Shown: positions 9,908 to 62,590 of the stretch, piece by piece
How positions within the stretch are numbered: position 1 is the first letter of the stretch
Layout: every line of letters starts with the position of its first letter
Assembly: GCA_001972305.1 (NCBI GenBank)
Contig: BDDD01002387.1
Coordinates: 1-64,000, forward strand
Length of the DNA: 64,000 nt
Direction: 5' to 3'
Origin: Cephalotus follicularis
Lineage: Eukaryota; Streptophyta; Magnoliopsida; Oxalidales; Cephalotaceae
Translations under genes and position numbers: made by a program
The notes under the pieces: generated by a model
What the model saw: only the letters and a program-made list of their open reading frames with translations
The model's database searches: none
Told to the model about the DNA's origin: nothing

Positions 9908-10105
9908 TTGGATCGATTGCAGGTCGTTTGTAGAGAGAGTTAGGGTTTTGGGCAGTTTTTGAGAGAGAAGGGGTAAGAGAAAAGAGGGGAAATCGGGTTT
10001 TTAAAACCTGATTCCCAAGCTTCCAGTCGACTGAGCTATTTTGGCCAGTCGGCTGGATGTTTAGGCAGTCGACTGGACAGTGAGTCCAGTCGGCTGGTTT
10101 CTGCA
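9908..10105 (-). promoter_or_regulatory. Putative ORF3 promoter of A with palindrome array
   Basis: Four copies of CAGTCGACTG or CAGTCGGCTG lie at about 10023-10100, between the RNase H stop and ORF3. On the minus strand they are followed by a TATA-like TTTTAAAAACC near 10000, a pyrimidine-rich leader and then the ORF3 start at 9907. The variant is the same as in this element's LTRs. A separate promoter is inferred from this arrangement. 10106-10315 is an AT-rich spacer with no gene. Confidence 0.55.
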
Positions 10106-10315
10106 GAATTTGGAAAAAGCAGAAAATTGCCTATCCCTTTGATTGGCAAACCTTTAGTCAGCTATTATGGACTAATAGTAACTTAGGTACATGAGCAATT
10201 TGATGTAATTGAGTTAAAAACTCAATGTTGAATGCGTGATAAATTTTGAAAAGCTTTTTTCATACCAATTCACACAACTTTTAGCCAAACATTACAAATG
10301 TGCATATAATGAGAT

Positions 10316-12130
10316 TCAAGAGGGATTTTGCATACCTAGCTCCCTTCGCAACGTGCAGAACCTCTCATTGTCCAAAGGCTTGGTAAAAATATCTGTAACT
10401 TGATTCAAAGTGTCAATATATTCAAGAAAAATATCTGCTTTTTCAACATGATCTCTAAGGAAGTGATGTCTAATTTCAATGTGTTTTGACTTAGAGTGTT
10501 GAACAGGATTCTTACTCAAATTGATTGCACTAGTATTATCACATTTTATGCACACATTGTCAATGCGAATGCCAAAATCACAAAGTTGTTGTTTTAACCA
10601 CAATGCTTGTGCACAACAACTTCCCGCCGCTACATATTTGGCTTCGGTGGTGGAAAGAGCAACACTATTTTGTTTCTTGGAAAACCATGACACTAAAGAG
10701 TTGCCAAGAAATTGGCAAGTGCCACTAGTGCTCTTTCTATCTAGTTTACACCCACCATAATCGGCATCAGAAAAAGCATGCAAGTTAAACAAGGAATCAT
10801 TTGAGTAAAACAAACCTAGTAAAGGAGTATATGCAAGATATCTAAATATACGCTTAACCGCAAGTAAGTGAGTTTCTTTAGGTGAAGATTGGAACCTAGC
10901 ACAAAGACACACACTAAACATAATATCCAGTCTACTAGCGGTAAGATAAAGGAGAGATCCTATCATGCTTCTATAGAGTTTTTGATCTACCTCTTTACCA
11001 TTTTCATCTTTGTCGAGTTTGGTAGTAGTGCTCATCGGAGTCTTGCAAGGCTTTGAGTTTTCCATTCCAAATCGTTTGAGTAGATCCTTTGTGTATTTGG
11101 ATTGGTTGATGAAGGTGGCTTCATTTCCTTGTGAGATTTGAAATACAAGGAAGTACTTGAGTTCACCCATCATACTCATCTCGAATTCACCTTGCATAAT
11201 GTTAGCAAACTCAACATAAAGAGAGTCATTAGTAGAACCGAAAATGATATCGTCAACATAGATTTGTACAATTAAAATGTCATTACGTTTGGTTTTTATA
11301 AAAAGAGTTTTGTCAACTAAACCTCTTTTAAAATCATTTTCCAAGAGAAATTTAGAAAGCCTTTCATACCAAGCTTTTGGTGCTTGCTTTAAACCATAAA
11401 GTGCTTTTGACAATTTAAAAACATGATCGGGAAAGTGTACGTTTTCAAAACCCGGAGGTTGTTCAACATAAACTTCTTCATTTATAACGCCATTTAAAAA
11501 TGCACTTTTGACAACGCCATTTAAAAATGCACTTTTGACATCCATTTGGTGCAATTTAAAACCTTTAAAACATGCAAAGGCCATTAGTAATCTAATAGCT
11601 TCTAACCTAGCTACGGGAGCAAAGGTCTCATCATAGTCAATGCCTTCTTCTTGACTATAAACTTGTGCAACTAATCTAGCTTTATTTCTAATAACCAACC
11701 CATTTTCATTCATTTTGTTACGAAAAACCCATTTTGTTCCAATGGTGGATTGATTTTTAGGCTTCGGAACTAAGGACCAAACATTACTTTTGTCAAATTG
11801 GTTTAATTCCTCTTGCATTGTCATAATCCAAAAATCATCTTTTAAAGCATCAAAAGTATTTTTGGGTTCGATATTTGAAATAAAAGCAACATTGTCACAA
11901 TACTCTCTAAGAGAGGAACGAGTTCTTACCCCTTCGGTAGGATTACCGATTACCTCGTTTTCCTTGGCATACTCTCTTTCTCTTCTTGCTACGGGCTCCT
12001 TGGTGACTTGAATTTGTTGGAGTTCTTCTTCATGTACATCTTCTTTTTCAATTTTGTCAACTTCAACATCATCTTTGGAGATGTCCAAGCCTTCCATTTG
12101 GTCCAAGATACCTACATCATCAACAACATC
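10316..12130 (-). CDS. Copia RT-RNase H of element A (open frame, non-autonomous)
   Basis: The open frame of 621 codons extends to 12181, but the first 17 or so codons are shifted integrase sequence. RT follows an acidic linker: [54 protein letters not shown] and the catalytic IYVDDIIFGST. RNase H then shows YRSMIGSLLYLTASR, SDADYGG, STTEAKYVAAGS and CDNTSA, ending with IFTKPLDNERF. Three oddities stand out. KSAFLNGV is tandemly duplicated (27 bp, near 11487-11540). The usual Gly of RLVAQG is Val. The usual TEAEY is TEAKY. It lies downstream of a truncated integrase and would be translated only as a polyprotein part, so it is a relic despite being open. Confidence 0.9.
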   Translation of the reverse strand, partial: DVVDDVGILDQMEGLDISKDDVEVDKIEKEDVHEEELQQIQVTKEPVARREREYAKENEVIGNPTEGVRTRSSLREYCDNVAFISNIEPKNTFDALKDDFWIMTMQEELNQFDKSNVWSLVPKPKNQSTIGTKWVFRNKMNENGLVIRNKARLVAQVYSQEEGIDYDETFAPVARLEAIRLLMAFACFKGFKLHQMDVKSAFLNGVVKSAFLNGVINEEVYVEQPPGFENVHFPDHVFKLSKALYGLKQAPKAWYERLSKFLLENDFKRGLVDKTLFIKTKRNDILIVQIYVDDIIFGSTNDSLYVEFANIMQGEFEMSMMGELKYFLVFQISQGNEATFINQSKYTKDLLKRFGMENSKPCKTPMSTTTKLDKDENGKEVDQKLYRSMIGSLLYLTASRLDIMFSVCLCARFQSSPKETHLLAVKRIFRYLAYTPLLGLFYSNDSLFNLHAFSDADYGGCKLDRKSTSGTCQFLGNSLVSWFSKKQNSVALSTTEAKYVAAGSCCAQALWLKQQLCDFGIRIDNVCIKCDNTSAINLSKNPVQHSKSKHIEIRHHFLRDHVEKADIFLEYIDTLNQVTDIFTKPLDNERFCTLRRELGMQNPS

Positions 12131-12395
12131 TCTCACAAAAATTTTCAAAACCAAGGTTTTCAAATTCTTTTCCGTGATCACTACGTATGCTTACAATAGA
12201 TAGACTCTTTTCATTTTGAATACGTCTACCGAATTTAATGAAGGAATCTAAAGCATCACTCTTTAAAGCTAAGAATATGACCCAAGTAAATCTAGAGTAA
12301 TCATCTACTATAACTAGGCCATATTGCTTACCACCAATGCTTAGAGTTCTAGTTGGTCCAAACAAGTCAATGTGCAATAGTTGTAAAATCCTGGT
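12120..12395 (-). pseudogene. Integrase core fragment of element A
   Basis: The minus strand reads MHIDLFGPTRTL, VIVDDYSRFTWV and SDHGKEFEN. These include the first two acidic residues of the DDE integrase core (the Asp of HIDLFGP and the Asp of SDHGKEF). The frame then leaves homology at FCE and hits stops. The third catalytic residue (the Glu of the VVERKNRTL-type motif visible in element B) and the C-terminal domain are gone, and the RT linker follows in another frame. The upstream end is cut by the solo LTR at 12396. Confidence 0.9.
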
Positions 12396-14169
12396 TGTAA
12401 CGACCCCGACCCGAGCTCACTAATAGCTCAAAGTGAACTCCGAGGATCGATTGCGTTACGTTGGGTGTGAAACGTTACATCCTTTGGTACTATTCTCTAA
12501 AAGTACACTACATCATAAACTCATGTCTTGCAACATCATACATAATCTTAAATTCAAACTTTACACATAATCATCTTATATAAAGATGTCATAACCATAT
12601 CGTTTGTCTACATTACACAGGATCATTCTTCTACATAAACATATAATACAGCGGAAAACTTTGTTCTTATTACATATCATAACATTTATGCAAACATCAT
12701 TGCATAGCCTTTCTTTCACAAAAACTCCTTCTTAAGAACTTCCTCTAAGCTCGTAATCTCCATTCATTCATTTCCTGAAAACATTTTATTTGAAAACAAC
12801 ATTGAAAGGAATGAGCTCAAAATAGCTCAGTAAGGTGTTTTTATAATAAACACATTTCATCATGATATTTTTCTAGTCAATACATATAACTAGAACATTT
12901 CGTAAAACATATCACTTTTCTAATTACAAACTCATAATTAGAACATTTCATAAACATAGAAGTCATAAAAACCTTAATGAACCCTTTACACCGCTTCATT
13001 GGGGCATTGTGCACTCCCCGACTACTATCCTTACATCACATGCATGTCCGTGATCATCTCGCTCCATTAACATTGTGCATCTCGCTCCATTCCCCTTGGA
13101 TCGCAATCCAAGGGCGGTTCATTCATCATTTACTTTGAGTGATAAGCTCAAAGCAATCATAAAAATCATTTCATAACATTTCTTTCACAATTCATAAATT
13201 TTTCTCTTCATTTGAGTAATTGACTCAAATAAGTTCATAAAAACAGTTTTGCATAGCTTTGTGAAAACTGATAATTCATATAGAAATAAGCCTTTTTAAT
13301 AAAAACTTAAAACATAAACATTAAACTAGACAGCTTTAAGAATTCAGAAAACTCAAGATCATAAAAATTGGTTGAGAATCGAATCCGTTATGAATTTTTG
13401 AAAGTGGCTGGTTCCATAAGAAAATAGGGCATGAGCAGTAAAATTAATCATTGATTCTCATCAAGAATCTGACATAATTTCGAGATACATAAAAGATAAC
13501 AGTTAAAGAGCACATCTTGAGGTTTTCAAAATATTCAACCATTTAATTTTTCATCAAGAAACGAGCAAGATATGATTTAAAGAAGTTACTGCATAATCCA
13601 GGGATAAAACAGTACCCAAACAGCAATTTAAAACATTGATTTTCATCAAGAAATCGATAGAATCTTGAAACATGAAAAGCATAACATTTAAAGAGGACAT
13701 CCTAAAGTTTCTAGAACATCCAACCAGTCAAAAATTCATCAAGAATTGATCAAGATATCAATAGAACAATCTGCTGTAAAATTTGAAAGCAAAACAGGGG
13801 ATGCTTTGTAGAAAATGGCTATAGAATTTCCTTACTTTGCTTTAGAATTTCTTTCTCTTTTGTTCTCCACGAATTCTCCACTTCACTCTCAGCAGGAGTA
13901 CTTTCCTTCTCAGCCAAAATGACTGAGTTCAACCCCCTTTGCCATTAAATAGAAGGATTACTTGGGATGCAAGATTTCCCCCCTTCTCACATGACTCAAT
14001 ACCCTCTCTTGGCAGCCCATGTGATCAAATTTCAACCAATCCAAGTGTTTACACCTGTTAGATCACCTGATAGCATCTCATATCATCCTCCCCTGGCCTG
14101 CCACATGTCCAAAATTAAAGATTTTTATGCACAAAATGCCAAAAACTCGGATATTGCATTTTGTCTGTA

Positions 14170-14445
14170 GCTCAAAGCGTCGACGTTTTCTTCTTAAGCG
14201 TCGCCGGTCACGGGCTTGACCTGAGTTTTTCACTTATATCCCGACTAAAGCACTGACGCTTTCTTACAAAACATCGCCGCTTTAAGTCTTCGTCCAGGTC
14301 AACTGACATACTTGACTTCAACGCGTCGATGTTTAAAATTAGAGCGTCCTCCGTTGCCCAAAGCGTCGACTCTTTCAATAAAACCGTCGGCGCTTTAGAC
14401 ATTTTTGTCAACTCTTAGCCTTTTAGATCGACGCTTTCAACATGA
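14170..14445. repeat. Palindrome array in Gypsy solo LTR
   Basis: About eight copies of AAGCGTCGACG(T/C)TT-like words occur, including AAAGCGTCGACGTTTTC and AAAGCGTCGACTCTTTC. The same variant is used by the unrelated Copia element B. On the minus strand the array lies upstream of the TATA-like box. Confidence 0.85.
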
Positions 14446-14486
14446 AATTCATCCAAAACAAATAGCCAATCTAAATTTTCTTCTGG

Positions 14487-14577
14487 GGGCGCTGCCCCCT
14501 GAACCCCTGCCCGCTGACCGAGCAGCGGGACCCCCCGTCCGCTCACCGGGGAGCGGAACCCCCCGAACCCCCCAAGC
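14487..14577. other. GC-rich island of the Gypsy solo LTR
   Basis: This strongly GC-rich segment starts with the palindrome-like GGGGGCGCTGCCCCC and continues with a hairpin-prone GCTCACCGGGGAGCGG. The same island appears at 43018-43107 in the related solo LTR. It stands out sharply from the AT-rich surroundings. Confidence 0.85.
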
Positions 14578-14677
14578 GTAGGGTCATACTACGAGTCCCT
14601 TGAACTATCTGGCAATTTACACAATGGAAATAATTTTCGATAATTAAATATCTTTAATGGAAATTTGGGTCATTACA

Positions 14678-15285
14678 CTAGTAGTTGAAACAATATTTTT
14701 GGCTTTAAAAGAAGTTCTAGTTTGTTTCCCTTGTGCACAACCATCACAAAGTTTGTCATTTTCAAATTTCATTTTAGGCAAGCCAATGACTAAATCTTTT
14801 CTAGAAAGTTTAGCAAGAATATCCATGCTAGCATGGCCCAACCGTCTATGCCAAAGCCATTTATCATTTGTATTAGCATTGAAACAAACATTTTTGGAAA
14901 ACATTTCTTTTAAATACACAACATACACATTCCCTTGTCTATGACCAACAAACTTTATATCATTAGTGCTAGTATCAATAATGTGACAAAGTGAGAATTC
15001 AAAATTAACTTTATATCCTTTATCACATAATTGACTAACACTAAGCAAATTATGCTTGAGCCCTACAACATAAGAAACATTTTCGATTAAGATATTGAAT
15101 TCGTTACCTATCAAGCCAATGCCAACAATCTTGGCTTTGTTGTTATCTCCAAAGGTGACCTTTCCTCCATCAACTTCTTTAAGATCAAAGAAGAGGCTTT
15201 TGTCACCGGTCATGTGCTTTGAGCAACCGCTATCCACGTACCAAGGTTCTTCCTCCTTGTGATTTGCTCGCAAACATCTTTCCAC
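14678..15285 (-). pseudogene. Protease and GAG-pre-integrase of element A
   Basis: The minus strand reads PWYVDSGCSKHMTGDKSLF, the retropepsin active site (DSG) of Copia elements. HNLLSVSQLCDKGY and the pre-integrase WLWHRRLGHASMDILAKL follow, then a zinc-binding segment (CDGCAQGKQTRTSF) and KNIVSTT, where the solo LTR interrupts the frame. The first codons overlap the previous frame and mark a frameshift near 15250-15285. Confidence 0.9.
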
Positions 15286-15904
15286 CTACAAAGGTGTTAA
15301 ATAATTTTGATCTTAGTACCCATTGTTTATTGGGTCCATTAATGTTACCTTTTTGTTTTATTGTTCCTTTAGGAACCCAAATTTGTCTAAATGTGATAGT
15401 ATTGTGATTTGGAGAACGTCTAGTGTGTGAATGAAAATGAGCAATCTTTTTAAAGAATTTATCAACAACATGTCCTACCTTATGACAATATGTGCAATGA
15501 GGTCTTGTTTTAGTGTTCTTTAATTTTGCCTTAACCTCTAAAGGAGTATAACCTTCTAGTGTGAATTTGCTAAAGGACTTCTCTAGGTTCACATTTTTCT
15601 TTTTAAGGGATTCTACTTCCTTTTCTAGATTTACATTGTCACAAGAAGTAGTCTTAACTACACAATCAACCTTTTTAGCAAGTTCATGTTCCAAGATACC
15701 AATATCGTTTTTCAAATGCTCATTTTCAATAACTAGCAAGTCCTTTTCTTTTTCAATACTAGCCATATTTTTCTTAAGTGATGAGTATTGAGAGCATTTC
15801 TTTTTAAATTCTACAAGCAATTCATCAAAAGCAAATTGTAATTCACCAAAGGTATAGGAATCATCTACCTCATTATCGCTTTCCTCGTTGTCACTCGATG
15901 CCAT
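15230..15904 (-). pseudogene. Gag C-terminal part of element A (coiled coil, second knuckle)
   Basis: The product starts at ASSDNEESDNEVDDSYTFG and has a long coiled coil (ENEHLKNDIGILEHELAKKV, then LEKEVESLKKKNVNLEK). A second zinc knuckle, CTYCHKVGHVVDKF, has lost its fourth ligand (Phe in place of Cys). RQIWVPKGTIKQKG follows, typical of SIRE gag just before protease. It is joined to the upstream gag by a frameshift between 15904 and 16012 and to protease by another. Confidence 0.85.
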
Positions 15905-16011
15905 GAAGCAAAGGTTGGAAACTTGTTCGGTGACTTCATCATCGGAAGATTCGTATCACTTAAGTGCCATGCTTTGAGAGCTTTCTTCTTGAAGAGCTTC
16001 TTCTTCTTCAA

Positions 16012-16953
16012 TTAAGGACAATCCACCTTGATGTGTCCCGATTTATTGCACTCAAAGCAAGTAGGAGGATCCAACTTGCTTCCTTCTCCATTGTTGGGAT
16101 TTTTCTTTTGAAAACGTCTAGCTTTATTCATCTTTGCGAATTTTGTGAATCGTTTCGCAAAGAGAACGTAGTCTTCTTCTTCTAACTCCTCATCACTCGA
16201 GATTTCTTCTTTGTGAGTGCTTTTGAGGGCAATGTCCTTCCTCCTTTCTTGTTGAGTCTTTTTCTCCACAAGGTTGGCGGATTTGTTGTTTAATTTCACC
16301 TCATGAGTCATGAGGGAGCCAAGTAGTTCTTCGATCTCCATGACCTTTAGGTCCTTCGACTCTTCAATTGCCGTGACCTTTGGTTCCCACTCATCATTAA
16401 GGCACCCGAGCAATTTCCTAACGAGTTCATATTTGCCAAAAACCTTGCCAAGGCCAAGAAGAGCATTAGTGATATCAAGCAAACAATTATATAAATTTTT
16501 CATGGATTCGTTTGGTTGCATTTTAAATAATTCATAGTCTCTATTCAACAAAGCAAGTTTGGCATTTTTAACTTGCTCGGTACCTTCATGGGTAAGGATG
16601 AGCAATTTCGACACATCATGTGCGGAGGTGCATCTCCTAACAAGATTATATTCGGCCTTATCTAAAGATACAAGCAAAATATTTAGGGCCTTGTTATCTA
16701 TGGTCAATTTTTTAAAATCATCATCATCCCATTCGTCTTCCGTTTTAGCAACGCATTCATTCTTATCATTTATTTTCATGGGAATGTGAGGACCATTTTT
16801 GACACTAACCCAATTCTTGAAGTCTCTAGACTTAAGGTAAATCTCCATACAACTTTTCCAATAGGGAAAATCATCACCACTAAAAAATGGTACCATAAAT
16901 TCAGAGACATCGTCATGGTTTCTAGTTTGGTTATTTATGCTAGTGGATGCCAT
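16012..16953 (-). pseudogene. Gag of element A
   Basis: The start MASTSINNQTRNHDD at 16953 lies about 45 bp inside the primer binding site. The Copia gag N-terminus (VPFFSGDDFPYWKSCMEIYL), the UBN2-type core (NALNILL-like KALNILLVSLD, MKNLYNCLLDITNALLGLGK, VTAIEESKDLKVMEIEELLG) and the zinc knuckle CFECNKSGHIKVDC are present. The frame ends at DCP followed by TAA, where homologues have AAA, so this is a nonsense mutation. Capsid-like assembly is the family role. Confidence 0.88.
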
Positions 16954-16997
16954 GATCTTTGACTAAAGATGTTAATCTTCAAAAAATGAGCACACAC

Positions 16998-17009
16998 GCT
17001 CTGATACCA
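16998..17009 (-). promoter_or_regulatory. Primer binding site of element A (tRNA-iMet)
   Basis: The minus strand reads TGGTATCAGAGC two bases inside the 5' LTR. It is complementary to the 3' end of plant initiator tRNA-Met. Confidence 0.95.
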
Positions 17010-17011
17010 AT

Positions 17012-18239
17012 TGTAGGAAGTTTAGAGGGGGGGTGAATAGACTTATAAAAATAAACTAGCAAATATCCTAGAAACAAAATAAACACAATCAATCAAAAAT
17101 GGAAATTAAAGAGTGTAGGGTTGAGAGAGTTGTAAACAAATATATAGTGGTTCGGTAAACCGCCTACGTCCACTCCCCAAGGCCTCCCCTTGAGTGTTTC
17201 ACTAGTTTGCCCCAATCCGGGGTTGAAGTTCCAACCGAGCTTCAACAACTTTCGCTTCAACCAAGCGAGTACAAGATAGCTCCCTCCGAGCTATACAAGA
17301 GACAACCTCTCTTGTTTACAAGTAAATTGAAAGTGTTTTAATGATTCACAAATTCTCAATGAATTTGTTTACAATTTAGCTCAAATCTAACAAAGCTTCA
17401 AGTGATTGAGAATGTAAAAACGGAAGGCTTTGTAATGTGTGAAATTGCTTCAATATAATCTCTTTTGGTGTTGAGAGTGTTTAGAATGATGCTTGAGTTG
17501 CCTTGAATAATTATCCAACTTGATTACTTTAAGAGTTTTGAAGAATGCTCCACTTTGGCTTATAAACATATGCTCCAACGGATCTATTTTTGAATGTCTA
17601 GCACAATCCAGTCGGCTGGATTTCCTGGGCAGTCAACTAGAGTTGATGGCGTGTTTTTCAAATATAGCCGTTGGTGAAGGCAGTCGGCTGCTTCCTCTGG
17701 ACAGTCGGCTGTTTCTCCTGGGCAGTCGGTTGGTGCTCTGTTCCAGTCAGCTGCTTGAGATGGATTGGACTTCCAAAAAGCTACTGCCTCATTTTGACAC
17801 ACTTGACAGTCGGCTGGAGATGTTGACAGTTGACTGGTGACCCTTGACAGTCGACTGGTTAAGGTGGTATGGAGTTCAAAAACCTACTGCCTCATTTTGA
17901 CACACTTGACAGTCGACTAGACCCCCTTGGCAGTCGGCTACTCCCCTGATGCAGTCGGCTGGTGTGGAGTGTACCTGCAGTTGCTGGGATTCCTTCAAGA
18001 ACCAGTCGGCTGTTTAATCCAAACAGTCGGCTGCTCAACCAAGACAGTCGGCTGCCCAACCTGGGCAGTCGGCTGTTTTTGCCTGTATCTGCAGAAATAG
18101 CCTTTGCACAACTTTGGACATTAAATCAAGTGAGTATATGAATTGATGGTTCAGATAATTATGCATACAGGTATTACATATTTGTCAATCATCGAAATAA
18201 CACATGTCAAGACAATTAACGGGGTGGCAAGGGCCAACA
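17012..18239 (-). repeat. 5' LTR of element A (1228 bp)
   Basis: It is nearly identical to 6952-8221 apart from scattered substitutions and two 21-bp deletions that each remove one palindrome plus one spacer (near 17855 and 17930). The TATA-like box is at about 17558-17568 (minus strand). Confidence 0.97.
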
Positions 18240-18463
18240 ACTTAAAACACCAATTGATTTAACCATTAATCATAAACATCTATTAAACATAAAATGAACT
18301 TTTAACAAAGAGTTTTGAAAGTTAGATCAAAATACAAATGCAAGCATAAAATACAAGGATTAACGCAACAAGATTAATGATGAATGATGTACAATACAAA
18401 TGATCAATCATCCATCCTATCATCCTCATCATCTCCATCTCCAACATCCTCAATGTCGGTGTC

Positions 18464-19618
18464 TCATCGTTCTTCTTGATTCTCTTCTTCATTTGTTGCA
18501 TCTTCTTGGCTAGATGGAGGTATTATATCCTCATCTCCAATAAGTCCTCTCTCAATAAGCTTCCTTTCTAGCCTTCTATGTCTTCTCTCAATACCTCGAA
18601 TAGCTCGTATAATCTCCTTAAAAGAACTATGAGTAAGAGTAGGAGTAGGACTATGCTCAAATTCTGGAGCTATCTCTTCTTGGCCTTGTACTTCTTCTCC
18701 TTCTTCTCCCTCTTCTTCTTCATCGCTTATTCTATTCTTTGGGGATCCATGTCCCAAGCCGCTTATGCTTCTTGAACCCCATCCTACCAAGGGTTCCCAT
18801 TCCCAACTTATCTACATTTTGAAGTGTATGGTGCACTTCCCCATCTAGATCAATATCATAATGCATAAGAATCTTAGTAATAATGTTTCTATAGGGAAGC
18901 CTTGCATTTTTCCTAGATTGTATGGGTTTCATATGCCTCATGATGAGTATCGGTATGGATATCCTCCTAGCCGTGATAATATGAAACATAGTGACTGCCC
19001 CCATGTGAGTGATTTCATCAAATCCACTGGCTTTCGGTAGAATATGGTGGCAACAGCTCTATGCAAAAAACGATAATCCAACCTAAGATTCCGAGAATAC
19101 ATTTTCTCAACCACTTGTGCATTTTCTCCAAATAGTAAATGCACACATTCTTCTATACTAAAACCCTCATCTACAACCCAACCTCTATGTGACCACCCAT
19201 GGGTCCCATCATTTGGAATGTTCAGAATAGATGCTAGTGTAGAGGAACTCATGTTAATATCTTTATTTTTCACCCTAGTGAACAATCCAAAGGCACTATC
19301 ACTAAGAATATTTGCATAAATTTCTTTTATTAAATCCGGGTAATGTGGGAGATTGATAGTAAATAAAGGTCCTAAATCAAGTACATTCAACCATTCCACT
19401 ATAGGAAAACCTTCCCCTAAGCAAAAATCAAAATCTAGAGTTTTACCAACAAGGATTTTTCTCTCAAAATAAGCTTGGGATATCTTATACCTTGTTGTGC
19501 AACTTCTTGGTGACCTACTTCCCTATCAGCCCAAGCAGCCATTGCTCTCTTAGTCCCTGTACCCATTCCTTTTGAGCTTACTCCTTCTACAGCATTTGGG
19601 TGTTATGTTCTTGCCATA
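18464..19618 (-). pseudogene. ORF3 of element B: Transposase_32-like, frameshifted
   Basis: It can be followed from about 19618 (MART, stop, then GMGTGTKRAMAAWADREVG) through VEWLNVLDLGPLFTINLPHY, PDLIKEIYANIL, SILNIPNDGTHGW, LRLDYRFLHRAVATIF and SIPILIMRHMKPIQ to an acidic and arginine-rich tail ending EENQEER. There are at least three frameshifts or stops. It is more similar in layout to ORF3 of D than to that of A and E. B UTR fills 18240-18463. Confidence 0.75.
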
Positions 19619-19789: not shown

Positions 19790-19930
19790 GAAACTGGCGA
19801 CGCTTTAACCTGATTATCGCGTCCTAAGCGTCGATGCTTTTAACTAAGCGGCGTCGCTTAGTGTAAAAGAAACCCTAAAAATGCAGTGTTAATTGTTGAT
19901 GCTTATTGATTAAGCGTCAGTGCTTAATCC
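19790..19930 (-). promoter_or_regulatory. Palindrome array upstream of B ORF3
   Basis: Four or five words of the B LTR type occur (GGCGACGCTTTAA, AAGCGTCGATGCTTTT, AAGCGGCGTCGCTTAG, TTAAGCGTCAGTGCTTAA). They sit about 170-310 bp upstream of the ORF3 start. A duplicated AT-rich leader follows ('tagaattttagggttcttaa' twice). 19931-20094 is an AT-rich spacer. Confidence 0.6.
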
Positions 19931-20094
19931 TGTTTTCAGCAATATTTTCAAAATCCATTTTCAAAGTTTACAAAAAATGATACACATAATCGTAAATGAT
20001 ACATGAATAATCACATTATCATTTAAATATCAAAATATCAAACAAACACAAATAATCACATAATCACACAAAATCATTCATTCAATATCACATA

Positions 20095-21580: not shown

Positions 21581-21581
21581 T

Positions 21582-23867: not shown

Positions 23868-24886
23868 TGTTGGAAAACGTATGGCAACCTTTAACTAATA
23901 ACTTTGTATGCGGAAAATACAATCTAAGCAATGAACATAAACAAGCACACAAGACAAAATAAATAAGGAGTTAAGGGATAGAGATTGCAAACAAATTTAT
24001 AGTGGTTCGGCAAATCCGTGCCTACGACCACTTTCTCAAGACCTCTTGAGTTTCCACTAGAATCCCCTAGCAACCTTTGATTTTCGGCTTACGGGTGCAA
24101 ATCAAAGAAACCACCTTACACTTGATTTAACTTCCGGGTGTAAATCAATGAAAAACCTTACAAGGGTTCACTCCCCTCAAATACAAAGAATGATAGAAGT
24201 GATTGGTGTTGTGTTTACAATAACCTCTCAATAGGTTGGATATGAAAGTGTAAAGCTTTAGCTTGATGCTCTTTCTCTTTTGTTTGTAGATGTGCAAGTT
24301 GAGATTTTGAGATTGGATGTTCAAATGTTGTTCAAGTGATTACTTGGATGTTTGATCTTGTTTCTAGGCTTGTATTTATAGCATTCTTCAGTTTATAGCC
24401 GTTGGTGAAGAGATAGATCCGTTGGAGAAGTGTTGGAACTTGTTGCATAAAAAATGGCTCTTAAAAACAAGTTCTGATGTTGTTCCAGCAGTCCAAAGCG
24501 TCGACGGACTCTTTAAAGCGTCGACGGTCATGTGACCGTTGGGGCTCCAAATTTGAATCTTCAGCTCAAAGCGCAGATGTCAACATGTTGGAGTCGACTG
24601 TCAGACCTAAAGAGTCGACGCTTTACCTAAAGAGTCGACGCTTTAGCCATTTTGTAATTGCCATTTCTCCTCTGTACCAGAAGGTAGACGCTTTGAACAA
24701 AGAGTCGACGCTTTGTGCCTCAAAGAGTAGACGCTTTGCTCTAAGAGTCGACGCTTTGCACTGTTTTTGTTCTCCTTTGTTTTGCTTATATCTTTTCTTG
24801 CACATTAAGTTTCTTGCACATAAAATAGCAAAGTTAAATGCAAATTTGTAATCATTAAAACTTAGGATTGAGACTAAAAGTCAACA
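23868..24886 (-). mobile_element. Copia solo LTR (1019 bp) inside B gag
   Basis: It starts TGTTGGAAAACG and ends AAAGTCAACA, with a perfect target duplication AAGTC (23863-23867 and 24887-24891). It shares the U5 block 'tagtggttcggcaaat' with A and B LTRs in the same orientation. It is a solo LTR because no internal sequence accompanies it. Confidence 0.95.
24372..24760 (-). promoter_or_regulatory. TATA box and palindrome array of solo LTR
   Basis: The minus strand reads GCTATAAATACAAG (about 24372-24385). Directly upstream (24488-24755) are about nine copies of AAGAGTCGACGCTTT or AAAGCGTCGACGG, several of them perfect in the AAGNGTCGACGCTTT form. This is the clearest example in the window of the array-then-TATA layout. 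Confidence 0.85.
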
Positions 24887-25215
24887 AAGTCTATCCCACA
24901 TTTCCTTAGCCAAAATGTATGAGATACTCTATTAAAATCATTAGAGTTAATAGCACAAATTATAATATGTTTAGCTTTAGTATTTCTTTTCCTATCTTAA
25001 TTATTATATCTAGTTCTAAGTTTAGAAATGATTTCACTACTTTCATTTGTGGTGGTAGGAAAATTTGGACCATCAACAATTAGGTCCTAAAGATTATAAT
25101 CTAAAGATTGAATAAATCTAGTCATTTTAGCATTCCAATGACTATAGTTGTTGCCATCAAAAAATGGTGGTTTGGACATGTTTTGGCTTTCATTGATATT
25201 CATATTCATGGCCAT
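24887..25215 (-). pseudogene. Gag N-terminus of element B
   Basis: The start codon at 25215 gives MAMNMNINESQNMSKPPFFD, then YSHWNAKMTRFIQSLDYNL and a stop, and then DLIVDGPNFP. This is the Copia gag entry motif (PPFFDG-NYSHW). It continues across the solo LTR at 23867. Confidence 0.85.
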
Positions 25216-25259: not shown

Positions 25260-25271
25260 GCTCTGATACCT
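25260..25271 (-). promoter_or_regulatory. Primer binding site of element B (tRNA-iMet)
   Basis: The minus strand reads AGGTATCAGAGC two bases inside the LTR. It matches the initiator tRNA-Met site except for the first base. Confidence 0.9.
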
Positions 25272-25273
25272 AT

Positions 25274-26551
25274 TGAAAGTACTACAAGAGGGGGGTGAAT
25301 TGTAGTGTATATGAAATAATGAACTTTTTCGCAATATGAATACACAAATGATAAGTTAAAGATAGAATGTTAAACCAAACTCAAGCAATTCAACTATAAT
25401 AAGTAAATAACTTGAATTGAAACGAAATAGAGTAAGAGTTTAGAGATTACAAACACAGTTTTATAGTGGTTCAGCTAAACTCTTGCCTACGTCAACTTTT
25501 CCCAAGACCTCCTTGAGCTTCCACTAGTATTCAATCTTGAATACAAACTTCGAATTTCTTTACAGCAGCAATTCGGTGCACCTTACAACTTCCATGATTG
25601 AACTCAATCACATACAATTTGGGTTCACTCCCCTTTATAATCAAAGTAACACAAAGTTGTTTAGTGATTTTGTATAGCCTCTATAAGGTTGGATATTGAC
25701 TGAATAAGCTCACTTACAACAACTAAAGATAAAAGAATAACACTTGCTAAAGACTATGAAGCTCTTGATATTGAAAGAATTTTGATATGAGAGATTGTTA
25801 TGTTGATTGTTGTGTTTTTTACACCCATTCAAGCCTCCAATTTATAGTGTTCAGTAGAATAGATCCATTGGAGGCATTTTAGAATATTTTGGCTTTAATT
25901 CAGCATTGATAAGATTGAGCATATCGCAATCTCATGCTTAAAGCGTCCCCAGTTTTGATCTAAGCGTCGACGCTTAGATGTTACTGTTACGCCTTAATTT
26001 GAATCTTCCTGTTTAAGCTTCATCGATTTGGCATCTTCATCTCTGACCTTAGCAAAGCGCTGACGCTTTCAATAAACTGTCGTCGATTTGTGGCATTATT
26101 CAGTCTTGAGTCCTTAACCGTTGAGGCTTAGTGAACCTTATCATTGATTTGCATAAAGCGTTGACGATTTCCTGTAAGCGTTACCACTTAAAGTGTTTGA
26201 TCAACTTCATGAATCCACTGTATCAGGGTGCTGGCATGACCTTCTTAACAGTTGGCGCTTTTTTGGCTCTAAGCGCTGACGGCGTTGATATAAGCGTCAC
26301 TGGTTTAGACACATTAGCTTAGACCAAACTCCTTATTTGCTGACCGTTTAAGTGTGCCTTTCAACGATTTGCCTAAGCTTTGACGGTTACTTTGTAACTG
26401 TCAACGGTTTGTCCTGCTTTGCCTGGAAATTCTTCTTTGTTTATAATATCTCATAATTTTCAGCATTTCTAACATCTTGCACAAAAGCGAAATAATGATT
26501 AGATGTAAATATGTTATCATCAAAATTAGGATTGAGACAAAAATGTCAACA
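25274..26551 (-). repeat. 5' LTR of element B (1278 bp)
   Basis: It pairs with 5259-6634, with identical termini and the palindrome array at about 25930-26410. The TATA-like box is near 25836-25848 (minus strand). It lacks the 89-bp duplication of its partner. Confidence 0.95.
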
Positions 26552-43107: not shown

Positions 43108-43399
43108 CGTAGGGTCATACTACGGGTCCCTTAAAATATTTTCCAATTACACGATAGCAATCATCTTTCCATAATTAATATCTTTAATGGAAATTCGGAT
43201 CATTACATATTGAGTGAGTTGTAGGTTTTAGGGTTTTATTAAATCCTTCACCTAATTGATACAGAGAATGATAGAAATTGTAAATTAAAGGTTGTAACTT
43301 GTTTTAATGACCTTGAATGATTGTTTTTAACACTTGGATTTCAAAGAATGGGTTTTAATGGGTTTTTGACATGAGATTTGGCTATTTTTCTGCATAAAA

Positions 43400-50623: not shown

Positions 50624-51189
50624 ACAACCGAGGGAGCTACTGTTACCGTTAGGGAGCTACGGCCCTCATGGGAGCATCAATCGTCAATCAATACAGTACC
50701 GCTCGTTAGCAGGTCAATACAATACGATAAATGAAATGATAGACAGAATAGGTGGACAGAGTCAACAACCTAACATGCCGACACAAATCATAAGGTCGCT
50801 CTATAGGATCCATACAATACAATCTATCTATCTATCAGTGCAATGTCAAAACAAGGTCAAAAAGTGGTGATGTCTAATCGAAGGAATGGGAATGTTCATC
50901 CAACGTTCCGAACTTAGACTCACAACACTTATGACCCAAGCAAACAGTCAATCAATCAGAAGCCGCTAGACGGTGACGAGTCGATGAAATAGGAAAGAAC
51001 ATATATTCAGTCCACGAAAGTCACTGGGTCATCGCCTATGGCTTAACCATCATTCTAACAATTCAATCTTTGAAAACCATGTAAAACTGTGTTTCAAACA
51101 CTTGAATACCTCAAGTGAGGCTCCGGTCAAGCGGCAATGTGAAAAGGAGTTGAAAACTAGGTTTAAAACTGTTAAAAGTTCCATTCGGC

Positions 51190-51560
51190 CCGAAAGGCAT
51201 CGATGTCCTTGGCCAAAGACAACGATGCATATCAGGGCATTTCTTTAAAACGGTAGAAGGACATCGACGTCTTTGAAAGACATTGATGCATTTCTCAATT
51301 TGTATAGAGATTTGGCCGAAGGACGTCGATGTCTTTGAAAAAAGACGTCGACGCGATTCAATAAAAGTAGCCTGGGATTGCGTATCGATGTTCAGCATCG
51401 ATGTCTTTCCTGGGGATAAGACATCTCAAGGCAAAGACGTCGATGTCTTTCAAAGATATCGATGTCTTTGCTGTGGAATCAAGGATACAGCATTCTAAAG
51501 CGAAAGACATCGACGTCCATGGGCTAGGGTCGATGTCCTTGCTGGGCAGGGTCGATTTTT
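51190..51560. repeat. Palindrome array of X, right copy
   Basis: About 14 words of the GACATCGATGTCTTT or GACGTCGATGTCTTT type occur, the inverse counterpart of 43400-43765. Individual words differ from the left copy in core (more GTCGA here), so the two copies diverged within the array. Confidence 0.9.
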
Positions 51561-52294
51561 GTGCAGAAAAAGTGGTCAATCTCAAGTCAAAATCCAATTT
51601 AAAGCCATTCTTTGAAAACTAAGGGTCAAAATCAATCATTTAAGGTTAGTAAAACTTGTTACAACCTTCTAATTTCAATTTAATCCTTCTAGATCAGTTA
51701 GATTGAGGATATCAATAAAAACCCTAGTTTTTCAATTCTATACAATACAATCATTCAATCAATCATGCAATTAAGCAATAGGCAATACAAGTAGAGAAGT
51801 CCTACCTATAACCGAAGCTTCAACAGTTGAGCTTCCAATCAATTAATCGGCTGAAATCACCCATGAATTAGCTGCTATCTCACTCAAACGATAACCCTCA
51901 ACTTGCAATCGTTATCCTTGTTGATGGAGATGCAAATCCGGGGCTGCTGGGGAGGAAGATGGAGGCTGCTCAGCAAGAGAGAGAAGGAGAGGGAGAGGGA
52001 GAGATGGAGAAGAATGAGAAAATGAGAAAAATGGCTAAGGAATTGGCTTATATAGCCGATTCCGCCAACTCTCCGAAACTCAGCCCAAACATCCCGACTA
52101 TACATGCATGTGATCAATACAATAGCAATAGGTATAGGAATACCTCAATTCAATATAGTACAATATAGTTCAATATGGTACAATACGATACAGTATATGC
52201 ATGAACAATGTTCAATAGTACAGAAAGGAAATTCGGGTCGTTACAAATAATACATGTCATGGTATATGCATGAATGCTAGATGTTATCGACTAT

Positions 52295-54417
52295 TATTTA
52301 GCATAAAAATATGTTGTTTTTAACGAGTTAATTGTTTTATTTTTATGCTTGGATCAGATTACTTGGGTCATTTTTATTTGATTTGCAGGTACAAAGGGAA
52401 AGATATCAAAGTGTAGTGAAATTGGTTCAAATTCTGCAAATTACAGAGCAAAGCGTCGACACTTACATTATAAGCATCGACGCCTATCTTTAAAGTGCTG
52501 ATGGTTCAATTAAAAGCATCGACGCTTGGTTTCTCTGCATCACTACGCGCTATGCTTAATGCTTTCTCGTGGCCTTCTCTGACTTTGTGCTCTGGTCGGA
52601 TTGCTCAGCACTTTGTGGTTGCATAGCACAACACCTCATCTCTGGCCTGACAAACACTTCAAGTCTGCCTCATACCTGTATTCCATGCTTTATTCTACCA
52701 TATTCATCATGCTCAGCAAAGAGTAGTTGGTGCTCGGCAACGTTGGTCGGCAGGCCTAGTCAGATAGTTTGATATTTTTATGTTCACAATGAATGCTCTG
52801 CATTTTAACACTTCTATGCAAAATGGTACTCGATATGCATGGTCTGACTTCGTTATGCTTTGCTCATCTCAGCATCTTGGCTCCTTTCATTTTTGGTCTG
52901 GTAGTCGAGTATCAATTAGTTTGTGCACTTCTCTGGTCAGCTCGATATCCCAGCTATTTCATGTATGGCCTGATCATTCGTCAAGTCGGTTTGGTTATTT
53001 GGTTCTCGGGTATGTGTTAGTTGGCTTCTCTGCTCGGTAACGTGTTTGGCTGGTTTGGTTTCATGCTCTGCTAATATTGCATGCTCGGCAAGTTCATTTC
53101 ATGCACTTCTCGAACTCTCTTCATGGTTTATACTCTACATGCAAGCTCTACCTTTGCACAAAAAACCAACATTTCAAGTTTGAAGCTCTGCTCGGGTACA
53201 TGTCCCACTTTACAAGTCTGAGTTTACATTTTAAAACGTCGTTGCATTGCACATTAGCGTCAACGCTTAGCTCAGTTTAGTATTGTAAGCGCCGACGTTT
53301 TACTCAACATTGTCGACGCTTAACAGCTTAAGTGCAGAACTAATTGCATTCATATTATTAAAACGTCAATGCAAAATGCACAAACCAATGACGCTTCCAA
53401 TGAAAGCGTTGATGCTTACGACTGGCAGCAAAATAGGAAAGTTTAGATTTTTTTTCCCAGTTTTGTAATTACGTTATTTTATTTCTGTTTTTAATCAGTT
53501 TTGTAAGTATATATATGTATAGAGGCAGGCCAAAGCAGTGTGTAGCCTCCCTCTTAGCCACCTTCTTCTTCCTTTTAGTTTTTTGTAGTTTATTTTCAAT
53601 GTTTTCTAGCTAAACTCTTTAGGTTTTTAGGGCAAGAACAAGCCATTAGGTTGAATTGATTCAACTCCATTAATAAAAATCCTTGAAGTTTTGATTTGTT
53701 CTTCAATTCTCTCCCTTCACACACACTTTGTCTATCTGATTAAAATCCACAAAAATCTTATCAGTGAATATGAAAGTTGCTAAATAAATGGTTTTTAATG
53801 CAATCAATGGAGTCTACTCATAAGGTTTGTCACAACAAACACACTCCATATAGACCTAGCATGTCTACTCATATGATTTGACGCTGCTGCCGTAGTCCGT
53901 ATAGACCTAGCATGACTACTCATACAATTTGTCATCACAGTCACACTCCGTATCGACCTAGCTGCTGTTGGTTACCAAGGTTTGATCAATCAAGTAAGTG
54001 AGTTGTTTGATATAATCTATTGTGAGTTTCTATTCCCTAAAGCCGACTTTAATTTTCATATTTTATACTCTTTAATTTATTGCTTTGATAATTCATAGTT
54101 GCATGCGTTAGAAATCTGTTAATTTCATTCCAGTGCTATAACCTTCAACGCTTTACTATTAGCGTCAATGCTTTCCCTGCTTTGTTTAGTTTTCGTCGAC
54201 GCCTTGTGACAAGCGTCAACGCTTTAGTGCCTTGTTTCAAATGTTTACTTTATTTTTGTGTTTTTGTAATAGTTATTGATAATCTACCTCTATTTTTCAT
54301 GTTATGCCTAGGTTGAATAGATTAAAATTAATTTAGATTGATTTCCTAGTGTTCAACCCGTTACTGCACAACCATGCACTTGCGGTATAAATTTAAAACA
54401 TTCAAAATACGTGAACA
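52295..54417 (+). repeat. 5' LTR of element C (about 2.1 kb)
   Basis: The first dinucleotide has changed from TG to TA. A TATA-like AGTATATATATGTATAGAGG (about 53507-53526) marks the promoter. Palindromes of the GCGTCGACGCTT or GCGTCAACGCTT type lie upstream at 52448-52530 and 53233-53420 and downstream at 54140-54225. A short block 'ctcatacgatttgtcacaac'-like (53815-53965) is repeated three times with GTATAGACCTAGC. ORFs of 60-86 codons near 52570-53280 lack family signals. Confidence 0.88.
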
Positions 54418-56535: not shown

Positions 56536-56538
56536 GTA

Positions 56539-59226: not shown

Positions 59227-59239
59227 GTATGGGGGTATT
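59227..59239 (+). promoter_or_regulatory. Polypurine tract of element C
   Basis: AGTATGGGGGTAT directly precedes the 3' LTR start, as in Athila elements. The same words near 58920 may be a duplicated tract. Confidence 0.75.
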
Positions 59240-59646
59240 TGTTTAGCATAAAAATATGTTGTTTTTAACGAGTTAATTGTTATATTTTTATGCTTGGATC
59301 ATATTACTTGGTTTGTTTTTATTTGATTTGCAGGTACAAAGGGAAAGATATCAAAGTGTAGTGAAATTGGTTCAAATTCTGCAAATTACAGAACAAAGCG
59401 TCGACACTTTCATTATAAGCGTCGACGTCTATCTTTAAAGCGCTGACGGTTCAATTAAAAGGGTCGATGGTTGGTTTCTCTGCATCACAACGTGCTCCGT
59501 TTAATGCTTTCTTGTGGCCTTCTCTGACTTTGTGCTCTGTTCGGATTGCTCGGCACTTTGTGGTTGCATAGCTCAACACCTCATCTCTGGCCTAACAAAC
59601 ACTTCAAGTCTGGCTCATACCTGTATTCCATGATTTACTCTACCAT
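59240..59646 (+). repeat. 3' LTR of element C, truncated by D
   Basis: It matches the first 400 bp of 52295-54417, including four palindromes at 59395-59475 (AAAGCGTCGACACTTTC, AAGCGTCGACGTC). It ends at CTCTACCAT, where element D starts. Confidence 0.93.
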
Positions 59647-59779
59647 TGTTGACATTTATATATTACAATCCTTGTTTATCCTTGTTTTGATGATAACAAA
59701 ACACCTGACATGTGTGTTTGATGTGAAGGAATCTTTAACTAATCTTACTTGTATTGTAAGAAGCTTAAACTTGCATATC

Positions 59780-60372
59780 AGAACTATTGGCGTCAACGAT
59801 TATGTTCTACGCGTCAACGTGCTGGGAATAAGTACATGTTCTAGGCTTGGAAGGATGCTTTTCGTCAACGCCATTATCTATCCGCGTCAACGTGCTGTAA
59901 AACTTATGATTTACATCAACGCCTTAAGGAAGACGTCAATGTCAATGACTTGAGCGTCAACGCAGAAAACAAGTGGAGTCAACACCTTGTATATATGCGT
60001 CAACGCCATATAAAGACGTTAACGCAAATGGTGCACATTTCGGACAGTGAGTTTAGACGTTAACGTGAAGATATCATGGAGTCAACATCTTGACTATATA
60101 CGTCAATGCCATGGATGAGTGTCAACGTAAATAGAGCTGAAGCTGAAGAAAAGCTTGAAGTATGAACGCAAAGAACCATAGGAGTCAATTCATAAGGAGA
60201 TAGACGTCAACGCCATGCGTACACGTCAACGACAATGACAGCCTGACTTAAAAATTGCAAAGATTGAAGGTGCTAAAATGGTGTGATCCTTTCCATATTG
60301 GATTCAAACGGCTCTCTGACAATTCCTGGACTCTAGCAATGGTAACAAACATCTGAAGGCTATAAATAGAGG
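59780..60372 (+). promoter_or_regulatory. Palindrome array (GCGTCAACGC) and TATA box of D LTR
   Basis: About 18 words such as GGCGTCAACG, GCGTCAACGCC, ACGTTAACGC and GTCAACGCCAT lie at 59785-60235. The TATA box GGCTATAAATAGAGG follows at 60358-60372. This family has TCAA or TTAA in place of the TCGA centre. The order of array then TATA is the same as in A, B and the solo LTR at 23868. Confidence 0.88.
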
Positions 60373-60873
60373 CTCGATCCATGAAGAAAATATCAAGCCA
60401 AAAGCAAGAATTCAAACAAGCAATATCCAAGCAATACAAGAGTTGTTTTCAAAGCTATTTTGCAAAGTTCTTTGCCTGAGATTTTTGAACTTTATATTTG
60501 TTATATCAGCCTTGTTAGAGGTTACATATACACTACACAAATACTCAACTCATACATTTGTGTAACCCAATGTCGTTAGTACCTTACTCAAAAAGTTAGG
60601 ATTTAGCATTGAAAAATCCGAGTTAGAATTTAGCTCGCAAAAAATTCAAATTAGGATTGACCTTGTAAAAATCCAGAGTTACTGTTTTTGATCAGAAGGA
60701 TTACATTCTAGTGAAATCTCAAGTGCAGCTTGGGAGAGTAGATGTAGGCACGATTTGCCGAACCACTATAAAATAGTTTGCATCTCTCTTCTCTTAGTCT
60801 TAACTTATTTGCAAATTATTTTATTTTCTTGTGTGTTGATTGATATTATTATCATTCTTGTTCTTAACTTACT

Positions 60874-62042
60874 ATGCTTGAGAATGAAATTATTTCCAGT
60901 ATGTATGCTCGTTTTAATAATATTATCAATGCTTTAAAAGGTCTTGGAAAGGTATACACTAACCATGAACTTGTGAGAAAGATTCTTAGGTGTTTACCAA
61001 AATCATGGGAACCAAAAGTCACGGCAATAGAGGAAGCAAAAGATTTATCAACTTTTCCATTAGAAGACTTGTTGGTATCCTTGATGACACATGAGCTTAG
61101 AATGAGTGACCAAGCAAGGAATGAGCCAAAGAAAAAGACGATCGCCTTGAAAGCATCAAAAGATGAAGAAAGTGATGAAGATAAAGATGAAATGGCTTTG
61201 CTTACAAAGAGGATTAGAATAATCCTACTGGACAAAAAAAAAATTCAAAGAAGCAATTGAAGAAGTTCCAAACGAAAGGAGATTTGAGCAAAAGTGACAA
61301 AGACGAAAAAGAGGTAATATGTTATGAATGTAACAAACCTGGTCACATAAGGCCGGATTGTCCTAAATTAAAAAAAAAGGACAAGAAGAAAGCAATGATC
61401 GCTACTTGGAGTGATGGTGACGATTCAAGTTCGAACGAGGACGAAAACGAGGAAATTGCCAACATTGCATTTATGGCTATGGAAGATGACAATAAGGTAT
61501 ATTCTTCATCCCTTAGTTATAATGATCTTCAAATTGAATATAATGAATTGATTGATGTTTTGGATGATCTTAACAAGGAATATCAATTGTTAAAGAAAAC
61601 AGCTAAAGATAGAGCTAAAGAAAATGTTGAATTGAAAAAATACATTCTTGATATAAAAAAGAATGAAGGCTTAGTGGAAAAGAATTTTGCTTTAGAAAAA
61701 GAGAATTCTGAGTTGAAAATCGAAATCGATGCTTTGAAAAAGACATTTTCAAAATTTTCTGATAGTAGTAATAAATTGGATAAGTTGCTAGGAATGCAAC
61801 GTTGTGTGTTTGACAAAGCCGGCTTAGGCTTTGATGAAATGAACAAGGTACAACATTTTAATAAATTGTTGGATAGAAAGAAGAAAATGGTTAACTGCAA
61901 TTATTGTGGAAAGTTTGGACATGTTTCTACTAATTGTTGGTTTAAAAGAACAAGTACAAAGGTTAAAAGGATATGGGTTTCAAAAGGAACTTTTCCTACT
62001 AATGCAAAAGGACCTAAAACCTTTTGGGTACCAAAAAGATGA
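60874..62042 (+). pseudogene. Gag of element D, N-terminally truncated
   Basis: The preserved part starts near MLENEIISSMYARFNNI and runs through VYTNHELVRKILRCLPKSW and VTAIEEAKDLSTFPLEDLLV. The frame shifts in an A10 run at 61234-61243, then continues with knuckle CYECNKPGHIRPDC, a coiled coil (ENVELKKYILDIKKNEGLVE, FALEKENSELKIEIDALKK), a second knuckle CNYCGKFGHVSTNC, VKRIWVSKGTFPTNAKG and FWVPKR before TGA. The stop lies exactly where protease should begin. Confidence 0.88.
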
Positions 62043-62319
62043 ACTTTTTGTTTTGTAGGTGTGATTGAAGAAGATTGGATAAAAAGATGATCCAAGCACA
62101 CACATTGTAAGTGTTTATTGTTTTTAATTGTTTGTTAAAATGTTGCATAATTTTGTTGTGTGAAAAAGATAAAATTAGTTATACATATTGTTGTTTGAAT
62201 ATGTATGCAATATCTTTTTTATGAATGTGCCATATTTCTCAATGATTTGATGTGTTATAGTTTTTGGAAGAAATTTTTTTTTTTTTGCAAAAATCAAAGT
62301 TTTCATGTTTTAAATGTTT

Positions 62320-62590
62320 TCACGTCAACGCTATACTATACAACTATCTATTTTTACGCGTTAACAAAAATATTTTCTCCTTCTATGCTTTTAGCGTCAA
62401 CGCTATATATTAGTGTTAACGTTATATATTCACGTCAACAATGGCGTTAACGTTATTATCCCCTGTACATGAATGTACACGATTAATGTCAACGCGTATG
62501 TTAGACGTCGACACCTAAACACCTGATATATATTGTTTTGGACATTTTCGTCGACACCAATTTTGTTTGGAGTTAACCTAAGTTTTTTTC
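62320..62590 (+). promoter_or_regulatory. Palindrome array upstream of D ORF3
   Basis: About nine words of the D LTR type occur (CACGTCAACGCTATA, ACGCGTTAAC, AGCGTCAACGC, GCGTTAACGTTAT, GTCAACGCG) and one or two GTCGACACC. A TATA-like TGATATATATTG (62523-62534), a CT-rich leader and the ORF3 start at 62676 follow. 62043-62319 is a spacer without a gene. Confidence 0.6.

Follow-up and report, generated by a model that had tools for sequence, protein, structure and literature searches.

The window described here is a stretch of 64,000 nucleotides from Cephalotus follicularis (C2387:1-64000 of the 1.58 Gb host assembly). It contains four Sirevirus-type Copia retrotransposons, called A, B, D and E. 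Each has an additional open reading frame, ORF3, and carries arrays of short palindromes in two places: in the long terminal repeat (LTR), and again in the spacer in front of ORF3. A is nested inside B, whose pol gene also contains the solo LTR C. D and E are rearranged copies; D is without pol, and E is an LTR fragment fused to the 3' end of pol.

Pfam finds Copia-type domains in A (RVT_2, and gag as well) and in B (Retrotran_gag_2, gag_pre-integrs and rve). A palindrome repeated in the LTR and upstream of an envelope-like (env) gene is typical of Sireviruses, and is what is found here. A and E also have the Sirevirus polypurine tract (PPT), AGGGGGAG followed by AT/TG at the 3' LTR, plus extra upstream copies. 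The PPT of B differs. Of the elements from elsewhere in the genome, L005, L009, L024 and L026 have the tract GGGGGAGATTG; the Sirevirus PPT was looked for in L011 and L015 and not found. A primer binding site (PBS) complementary to initiator tRNA-Met (TATCAGAGC) adjoins the 5' LTRs of A and B.

The palindromes come in three variants, V1 (CAGTCGACTG), V2 (AAGCGTCGACGCTT) and V3 (GCGTCAACGC). Among their copies the cores GTCGAC, GTCAAC and ATCGAT occur. Allowing 1 mismatch, V1 has 11 and 12 sites in the LTRs of A and 4 in its spacer, 5 in the LTR of E and 3 in its spacer, one in C, and none in B and D. V2, at 4 mismatches, has 10 and 12 sites in the LTRs of B and 5 in its spacer, with none in A and E. 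V3, at 1 mismatch, has 7 sites in the LTR of D and 2 in its spacer. Dinucleotide shuffles of the array regions (200 in one run, 100 in another) hold about 0-0.3 sites each, which places the arrays far above chance. In a table of element against variant the arrays thus lie on the diagonal, with V1 for A and E, V2 for B (and C) and V3 for D. V2 and V3 overlap somewhat, as D also scores V2 (LTR 3, spacer 2) and the 5' LTR of B scores V3 (3). The arrays of B are degenerate: with 1 mismatch allowed in the 10-mer, each keeps a single site.

An initial annotation, made from the sequence alone, had placed an internal array between the preceding gene and ORF3 in each of four elements, each array using the variant of its own LTR. 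All four arrays are where they were said to be, and the counts bear out the matching variants. Some details need adjusting. A and E belong to one family, so the window offers three families and not four, and the gene preceding the internal array of D is gag, since pol is missing there.

A palindrome count that is blind to the motif ranks V1 first or tied first in all 8 V1 LTR regions. It also ranks the assigned motif first in the LTRs of C, D and F (an element described below), where the count for C is within the shuffle maximum, and it missed the motif in both LTRs of B. Among the spacers, V1 ranks first only in E and L015, and in the A spacer and other short ones the blind count does not rise clearly above chance. 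It is therefore mainly with the LTR motif in hand that the spacer arrays become evident. The control regions B pol and D gag hold no site of any of the four motifs, V4 (below) included, and the ORF3 controls of A and B hold a single V4 site, in B. The gag-pol control of A has one V4 site and 7 V2 sites (0.93 expected); the latter (14175-14382) lie inside a TG...CA insertion at 12396-14677, so this control is not clean.

Array type and ORF3 type beyond the window

Whether LTR and internal variants covary, a check suggested with the initial annotation, was examined in 26 elements with an ORF3: the four in the window, and 6, 8 and 8 from three samples. The first sample took 20 stretches of 10 kb at pairs of V1 sites, which is a biased choice; six held an ORF3. 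The second came from a search with the Pfam family PF20167 (13,073 first-look candidates, 150 scored), and the third from a search with the ORF3 of B (10,044 first-look candidates, 150 scored). Each supplied 8 loci at about even ranks, and the two candidate sets may overlap. Spacer and LTR array types agree in 23 of the 23 elements where both are readable, at the level of V1, V2/V3 or V4.

In the first sample, five of the six elements have V1 in both arrays. The sixth, F (L018, continued in L025), is Copia by gag and pol, and its ORF3 shares 29-34% identity with the D type. F carries a fourth variant, V4 (ACATCGATGT), with 6 sites in the spacer and 14 in the LTR, besides 2 and 3 loose V2 hits; among the ORF3 elements examined, F is the only one of the V4 type. 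The second sample has V3 sites both upstream and downstream of ORF3 in all 8 loci. V3 leads in every downstream array, and the looser V2 pattern scores at least as high as V3 in four of the spacers, all from hAT copies (below). The third sample has V2 upstream in 7 of 8, downstream in 6 and on both sides in 5, with L037 weak (1 and 2 sites). The gaps are L038 (which holds 1,199 N), without a downstream site, L040, without an LTR-side V2 array in range, and L041, without a spacer array. Stray single hits of another type also occur, such as one V4 site in the L005 spacer, and one V4 site per array in L030.

The ORF3 proteins of A, B, D and E all match PF20167 (Transposase_32), D alone above the family cut-off of 45 bits. 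The pieces from A, B and E score 28-38 bits; full-length relatives score 59-89, above that cut-off. For the ORF3 of D, the best 120 of 163 protein matches are all from Cephalotus follicularis, with a top identity of 89%. Viral contigs were searched for relatives of the A pol and the D ORF3, and held none.

In a tree of 26 ORF3 sequences, array type tracks ORF3 clade. The clades are V1 (7 sequences, support 100/100), V2 (9, 100/100) and V3 (9, 96/94), and 14 of the 23 inner branches are open. F is alone on a long branch next to V2, a position that the tree tool itself flags as unsure. Seven ORF3 copies from hAT DNA transposons nest inside the V3 clade (93/94). Within that clade the chassis switches between Copia and hAT with the array type constant.

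The hAT elements came from the second sample. Seven of its eight loci (L027-L033) have a common 5' boundary in front of which nothing aligns; the alignment of L028 begins somewhat later, and a start like a terminal inverted repeat (TIR) can be read there. The other end was obtained for two elements of about 5.9 kb, L029/L034 (L029:110-3399 plus L034:1-2694) and L033/L035. They have the hAT TIR TAGGGTTGCAAGTGG, imperfect in L033, and 8-bp target-site duplications (TSDs), CCTAGGTG and CTTGTAGC. The transposase is on the opposite strand (PF14372 at 9.4e-9 in L034, PF05699 at 2e-5 in L035); three other L034 pieces are without a Pfam hit. The hAT C-terminus matches in 5 of the 7 loci and not in L030 and L032, the latter holding 575 N.

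The left array of L029/L034 aligns with the spacer of the Copia element L026 at 72% identity over 270 bp. The middle array, after ORF3, matches the LTR of L026 at 77.5% over 218 bp, and the right array, before the transposase, matches the same LTR at 70% over 445 bp. This means that a DNA transposon holds a block of spacer, ORF3 and LTR-U3. The right array is in sense to the transposase and has TATAAAT downstream. Going by homology, the transposase sits behind promoter sequence that appears to be LTR-derived, and the likeness to both LTR and spacer suggests that the block went from a retrotransposon into the hAT element. Two side observations concern these copies. CGG-CCG repeats adjoin both TIRs of L029/L034 and L033/L035. 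Past the middle array, five hAT copies have a second, inverted copy of the last part of the ORF3 stretch at 80-87% (L029 1704-1850 versus 3013-2864), perhaps left over from the assembly of the block.

ORF3 has been under purifying selection in the past. The ratio of nonsynonymous to synonymous divergence (dN/dS) is 0.13-0.16 between L026 and six hAT ORF3s (dS 1.07-1.41), and 0.16-0.21 in six V1 pairs. It is 0.54-2.59 in 15 pairs of recent hAT copies at dS of at most 0.11, so constraint is not visible among these. The calculation used open reading frames of at least 230 amino acids, which dropped L033, L005, A, E and B; D and F are long enough and were left unpaired.

Part of the arrays are biased in orientation. 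Read on the sense strand across 15 V1 regions, CAGCCGACTG occurs 48 times and is the most frequent V1 copy, versus 0 for CAGTCGGCTG. In the whole genome, exact CAGTCGACTG-N11-CAGTCGACTG occurs 25,896 times, versus 89 for the pattern read backward. The right arrays of the two hAT elements have pattern matches of 14:0 and 13:0, where one site can count twice, and hAT spacer arrays are of mixed orientation (4-8 versus 1-5).

V1 sites follow each other in steps of 20-21 bp in 118 of 193 distinct gaps, in a sample that is biased because 20 of its 21 sequences were picked at 21-bp pairs. Strict helical phasing was considered and rejected: gaps of 27-28 and 49-50 bp also occur, so phasing past two turns is not claimed. 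The 11-bp gaps between 21-bp-spaced V1 sites are 40% alike within arrays and 32% between arrays, with 25% expected (44 units, some from sister LTRs). This suggests that the sites are held while the gaps drift.

What may read the arrays

The arrays are probably recognition sites for the element's own ORF3, a reader acting on promoters much like VANC, an anti-silencing protein of transposable elements (TEs). A rough probability for this is 0.6. It rests on array type tracking ORF3 type, and on the predicted fold: for an ORF3 relative, the best structural match among those listed is VANC21 on DNA, and the predicted ORF3 fold is VANC21-like with a long C-terminal helix. A good model took 54 alignment rows; 29 rows gave a useless one, with a predicted local distance difference test (pLDDT) score of 35. 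At the sequence level, hmmscan down to E 10 gave PF20167 and chance-level matches only for 6 of 6 proteins, and a profile search of PDB sequences with ORF3 gave no VANC21.

If this is correct, ORF3 would bind the palindrome of its own clade ahead of each transcription unit of the element. The LTR array would serve gag-pol, the spacer array ORF3 itself, and the right array of the hAT element its transposase. Binding would keep these promoters unsilenced, or active. Site and reader would travel and diverge together, so that both arrays of an element match. The initial annotation had proposed one recognition factor co-evolving with its site and had named no factor. The 23 matches, the way array type goes with ORF3 clade in Copia and hAT alike, and the VANC21-like model all speak for such a factor; that it is ORF3 is suggested only now.

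Some further points bear on ORF3 as the reader. The sampled copies are related: by ORF3 there are four lineages, and V2 and V3 are so close that only three types differ sharply, so a full match arises by chance once in 24 or once in 6, and the lineage count alone is weak. Sites also occur in elements without an ORF3 in range, namely C and a set of V1-bearing LTRs about 2.75 kb long. And four env-less Sireviruses with LTR arrays have been described (PMC2829016, as far as its available text goes); these could use a reader made by others, or could speak against a self-encoded one.

A wider claim is about an even bet. ORF3 and its palindromes would be a portable module, a PF20167 reader of VANC-like fold with its own sites, which diversified in Sireviruses, was captured as a block by hAT, leaving the hAT transposase behind a captured LTR promoter, and is exploited by other LTR elements that carry only sites.

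The initial annotation also read a TATA-like sequence and an AT- or CT-rich leader in front of ORF3 as an internal promoter. The CT-rich part stands for 7 of 10 leaders, where the tract beats shuffles (at most 4/300); the other counts are L005 18/300, B 75/300 and F 137/300. The TATA part is confined to the V3 clade. TATA[TA]A[TAG] is present in 9 of 9 V3-clade spacers at -127 to -170, with two more upstream in D, and 18-37% of shuffles of these stretches also contain it somewhere. It is absent within 300 bp of the ATG in all 7 V1 spacers. After the last palindrome, TATA does no better than chance in any of 10 leaders, the best being F with 93/300. Six elements (A, D, E, L009, L011 and L015) are free of AG between pyrimidine tract and ATG, and L005 and L024 have a single AG in that interval, which is mildly against a splice acceptor there. 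An internal promoter may lie before ORF3, and is unproven.

The CT-rich leaders also fit an older proposal, which is doubtful here: the arrays are enhancers for host transcription factors, the LTR set driving gag-pol and the internal set ORF3, and ORF3 itself does something else. Bousios 2010 proposed this with stress-factor sites from PLACE (available text of PMC2829016). The TATA boxes that lie downstream of the LTR arrays in D and L026 suit it, as do the elements that have arrays and no ORF3 in range. It gives no reason, however, why array type should track ORF3 clade across Copia and hAT, or why hAT should keep ORF3 together with the arrays, and a single host would require a separate factor per family.

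It is improbable that the arrays act as RNA hairpins that feed or steer small-RNA silencing. This has been proposed for maize Sireviruses, whose palindromes are small-RNA hotspots and recur in Helitrons (PMC5311732, PMC10760457, from the text available). Folding does beat shuffles on both strands, with z of -7.0/-8.5 for the A spacer, -3.3/-2.7 for E and -3.1/-2.7 for D (62316-62465), but any palindrome array folds. In sense RNA the commonest V1 copy has C facing A, a mismatch; in the reverse orientation, which was not seen, a G-U pair would form instead. Nor does this reading account for the link to ORF3 clade.

Very unlikely, finally, is a passive match with no reader, by copying or conversion between LTR and spacer: the two sites share an element and could be homogenised, and the 20-21 bp steps make tandem growth plausible, but the gaps drift while the sites are held, and spacer and LTR share no more than 13-18 bp around the palindromes in A and B (the comparison lists none in D and E), so that on this evidence the spacer array is not a pasted piece of LTR.

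The role of the extra envelope-like gene in Sirevirus-type elements is unsettled (PMC2829016, PMC3414828, available text). If ORF3 does read the arrays, this gene would not be an envelope, but a self-targeted regulator: a sequence-specific anti-silencing or activating factor. DNA-binding anti-silencing encoded by TEs would then extend past the Mu-like VANDALs, and a module of reader and sites could move between retrotransposons and DNA transposons. There are also direct binding predictions, of four ORF3 clades against four palindromes.

Feature coordinates and other repeats with arrays

Table 1 Features of elements A to E in the window. PF20167 scores are in bits, with a family cut-off of 45.
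Feature	Position	Strand	Remarks
A, whole element	6952-18239	-	TSD ACTTA
A 3' LTR	6952-8221	-	V1 array ~7619-8059; TSD ACTTA (6947-6951, 18240-18244) and PPT-ATTG at LTR edge, read from sequence
A ORF3	8795-9908	-	one in-frame stop; PF20167 in piece 8795-9493, 33 bits
A internal V1 array	10022-10098	-	4 sites, 20-22 bp steps; between pol end and ORF3
A pol 3' part	10316-12181	-	RVT_2, Copia
A 5' LTR	17012-18239	-	V1 array ~17607-18077; adjoining PBS TGGTATCAGAGC
B, whole element	~5260-26550	-	TSD TGTAG
B 3' LTR	5260-6636	-	degenerate V2 array; TSD TGTAG read from sequence
B ORF3	18400-19545	-	interrupted; PF20167 in piece 18938-19399, 28 bits
B internal V2 array	19790-19935	-	degenerate
B 5' LTR	25271-26550	-	degenerate V2 array
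C solo LTR inside B pol	23869-24887	-	V2-like array 24496-24756; TSD AAGTC
E LTR fragment	33268-33456	+	joined to pol 3' end, rearranged copy
E internal V1 array	34381-34453	+	
E ORF3	34566-35711	+	interrupted; PF20167 in piece 34566-35114, 38 bits
E 3' LTR	36334-36650	+	truncated; V1 array 36497-36642; terminal PPT just upstream
D LTR	59646-60870	+	3' end lost; V3 array ~59790-60234; TATAAAT at 60361
D gag fragment	61257-62042	+	zinc knuckle; pol missing
D internal V3 array	62320-62560	+	between gag end and ORF3
D ORF3	62676-63422	+	cut short; PF20167, 73 bits, E 3.8e-20

Other repeats carry arrays as well. The family of ~2.75 kb LTRs (TGTAATAACC...TGACA) with V1 arrays is present in L018 (4720-7475), L012, L017, L019 and L023, with 5-bp TSDs AGTTG (L018), TATGT (L012) and CTATA (L019). 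In L017 a primer site follows the LTR; this is another LTR retrotransposon family.

Within the window, the repeat at 12396-14677 (TGTAACGACC...GGTCATTACA), inserted into A pol, is partly related to one at ~40806-43207. They have V2 arrays at 14175-14382 and 42748-42956. V4-type arrays at 43416-43745 and 51194-51504 lie in inverted repeats (43229-44329 and 50624-51726) that are 81% alike. Further V2-type arrays outside A to E are at 37317-38513, 52451-54211 and 59396-59459, and D appears to be inserted, at ~59646, in one of these repeats. The B-type element in L039 has an extra V2 cluster (1889-2022, in ORF3 orientation) close behind ORF3, with the LTR-side cluster much further on.

Comparison with known systems

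The core of the array finding is already known. Bousios 2010 described palindromic repeated motifs (RMs) in Sirevirus LTRs, upstream of the TATA box, and in nine env-containing Sireviruses 77 of 79 additional copies lie upstream of env. Each element has a single motif with a consensus of its own, and an internal promoter was suggested (available text of PMC2829016). Paired arrays, one motif per element and the promoter idea are thus published, and the elements here are alike in having an array in the LTR and again before the env-like gene, with a motif that varies between elements. RMs have a CGG-CCG core, Tnd-1 excepted, unlike the three cores given above. That text also mentions neither a reader encoded by the element itself nor transposons of another class, and it ties the motifs to no clades of the extra gene.

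SIRE1 likewise has an extra gene after pol. Only a stop codon, subject to suppression, separates pol from env there (PMC2829016, same text), whereas some 400 bp and an array lie between pol and ORF3 in A and E. A sunflower Athila reading frame has partial similarity to PF20167 (PMC11728184), and PMC12844716 leaves open whether additional reading frames of LTR elements act like VANC, both going by the text available. Searches of an open-access library, which lacks most subscription papers, listed no report of the ORF3-clade link, the hAT capture or the VANC-like fold.

The VANC system of the VANDALs (Hosaka 2017, PMC5735166, available text) differs in some respects. VANDALs belong to the Mu-like DNA transposons, VANC21 has a non-palindromic motif, YAGTATTAY, and ORF3 is PF20167, without detected sequence similarity to VANC. 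VANC21 binds dense copies of its motif, in one orientation, in the non-coding regions of its own element; VANC6 has a different motif, found also in an unrelated element. Unpublished VANC-DNA structures are mentioned as suggesting co-evolution of protein and target (PMC12859917, available text). The likeness to the elements described here is a TE-encoded protein, with VANC21 on DNA as the best listed match to the predicted fold of an ORF3 relative, together with dense arrays of a short motif, non-coding and upstream of a gene, which differ between related families and have sites in unrelated elements too.

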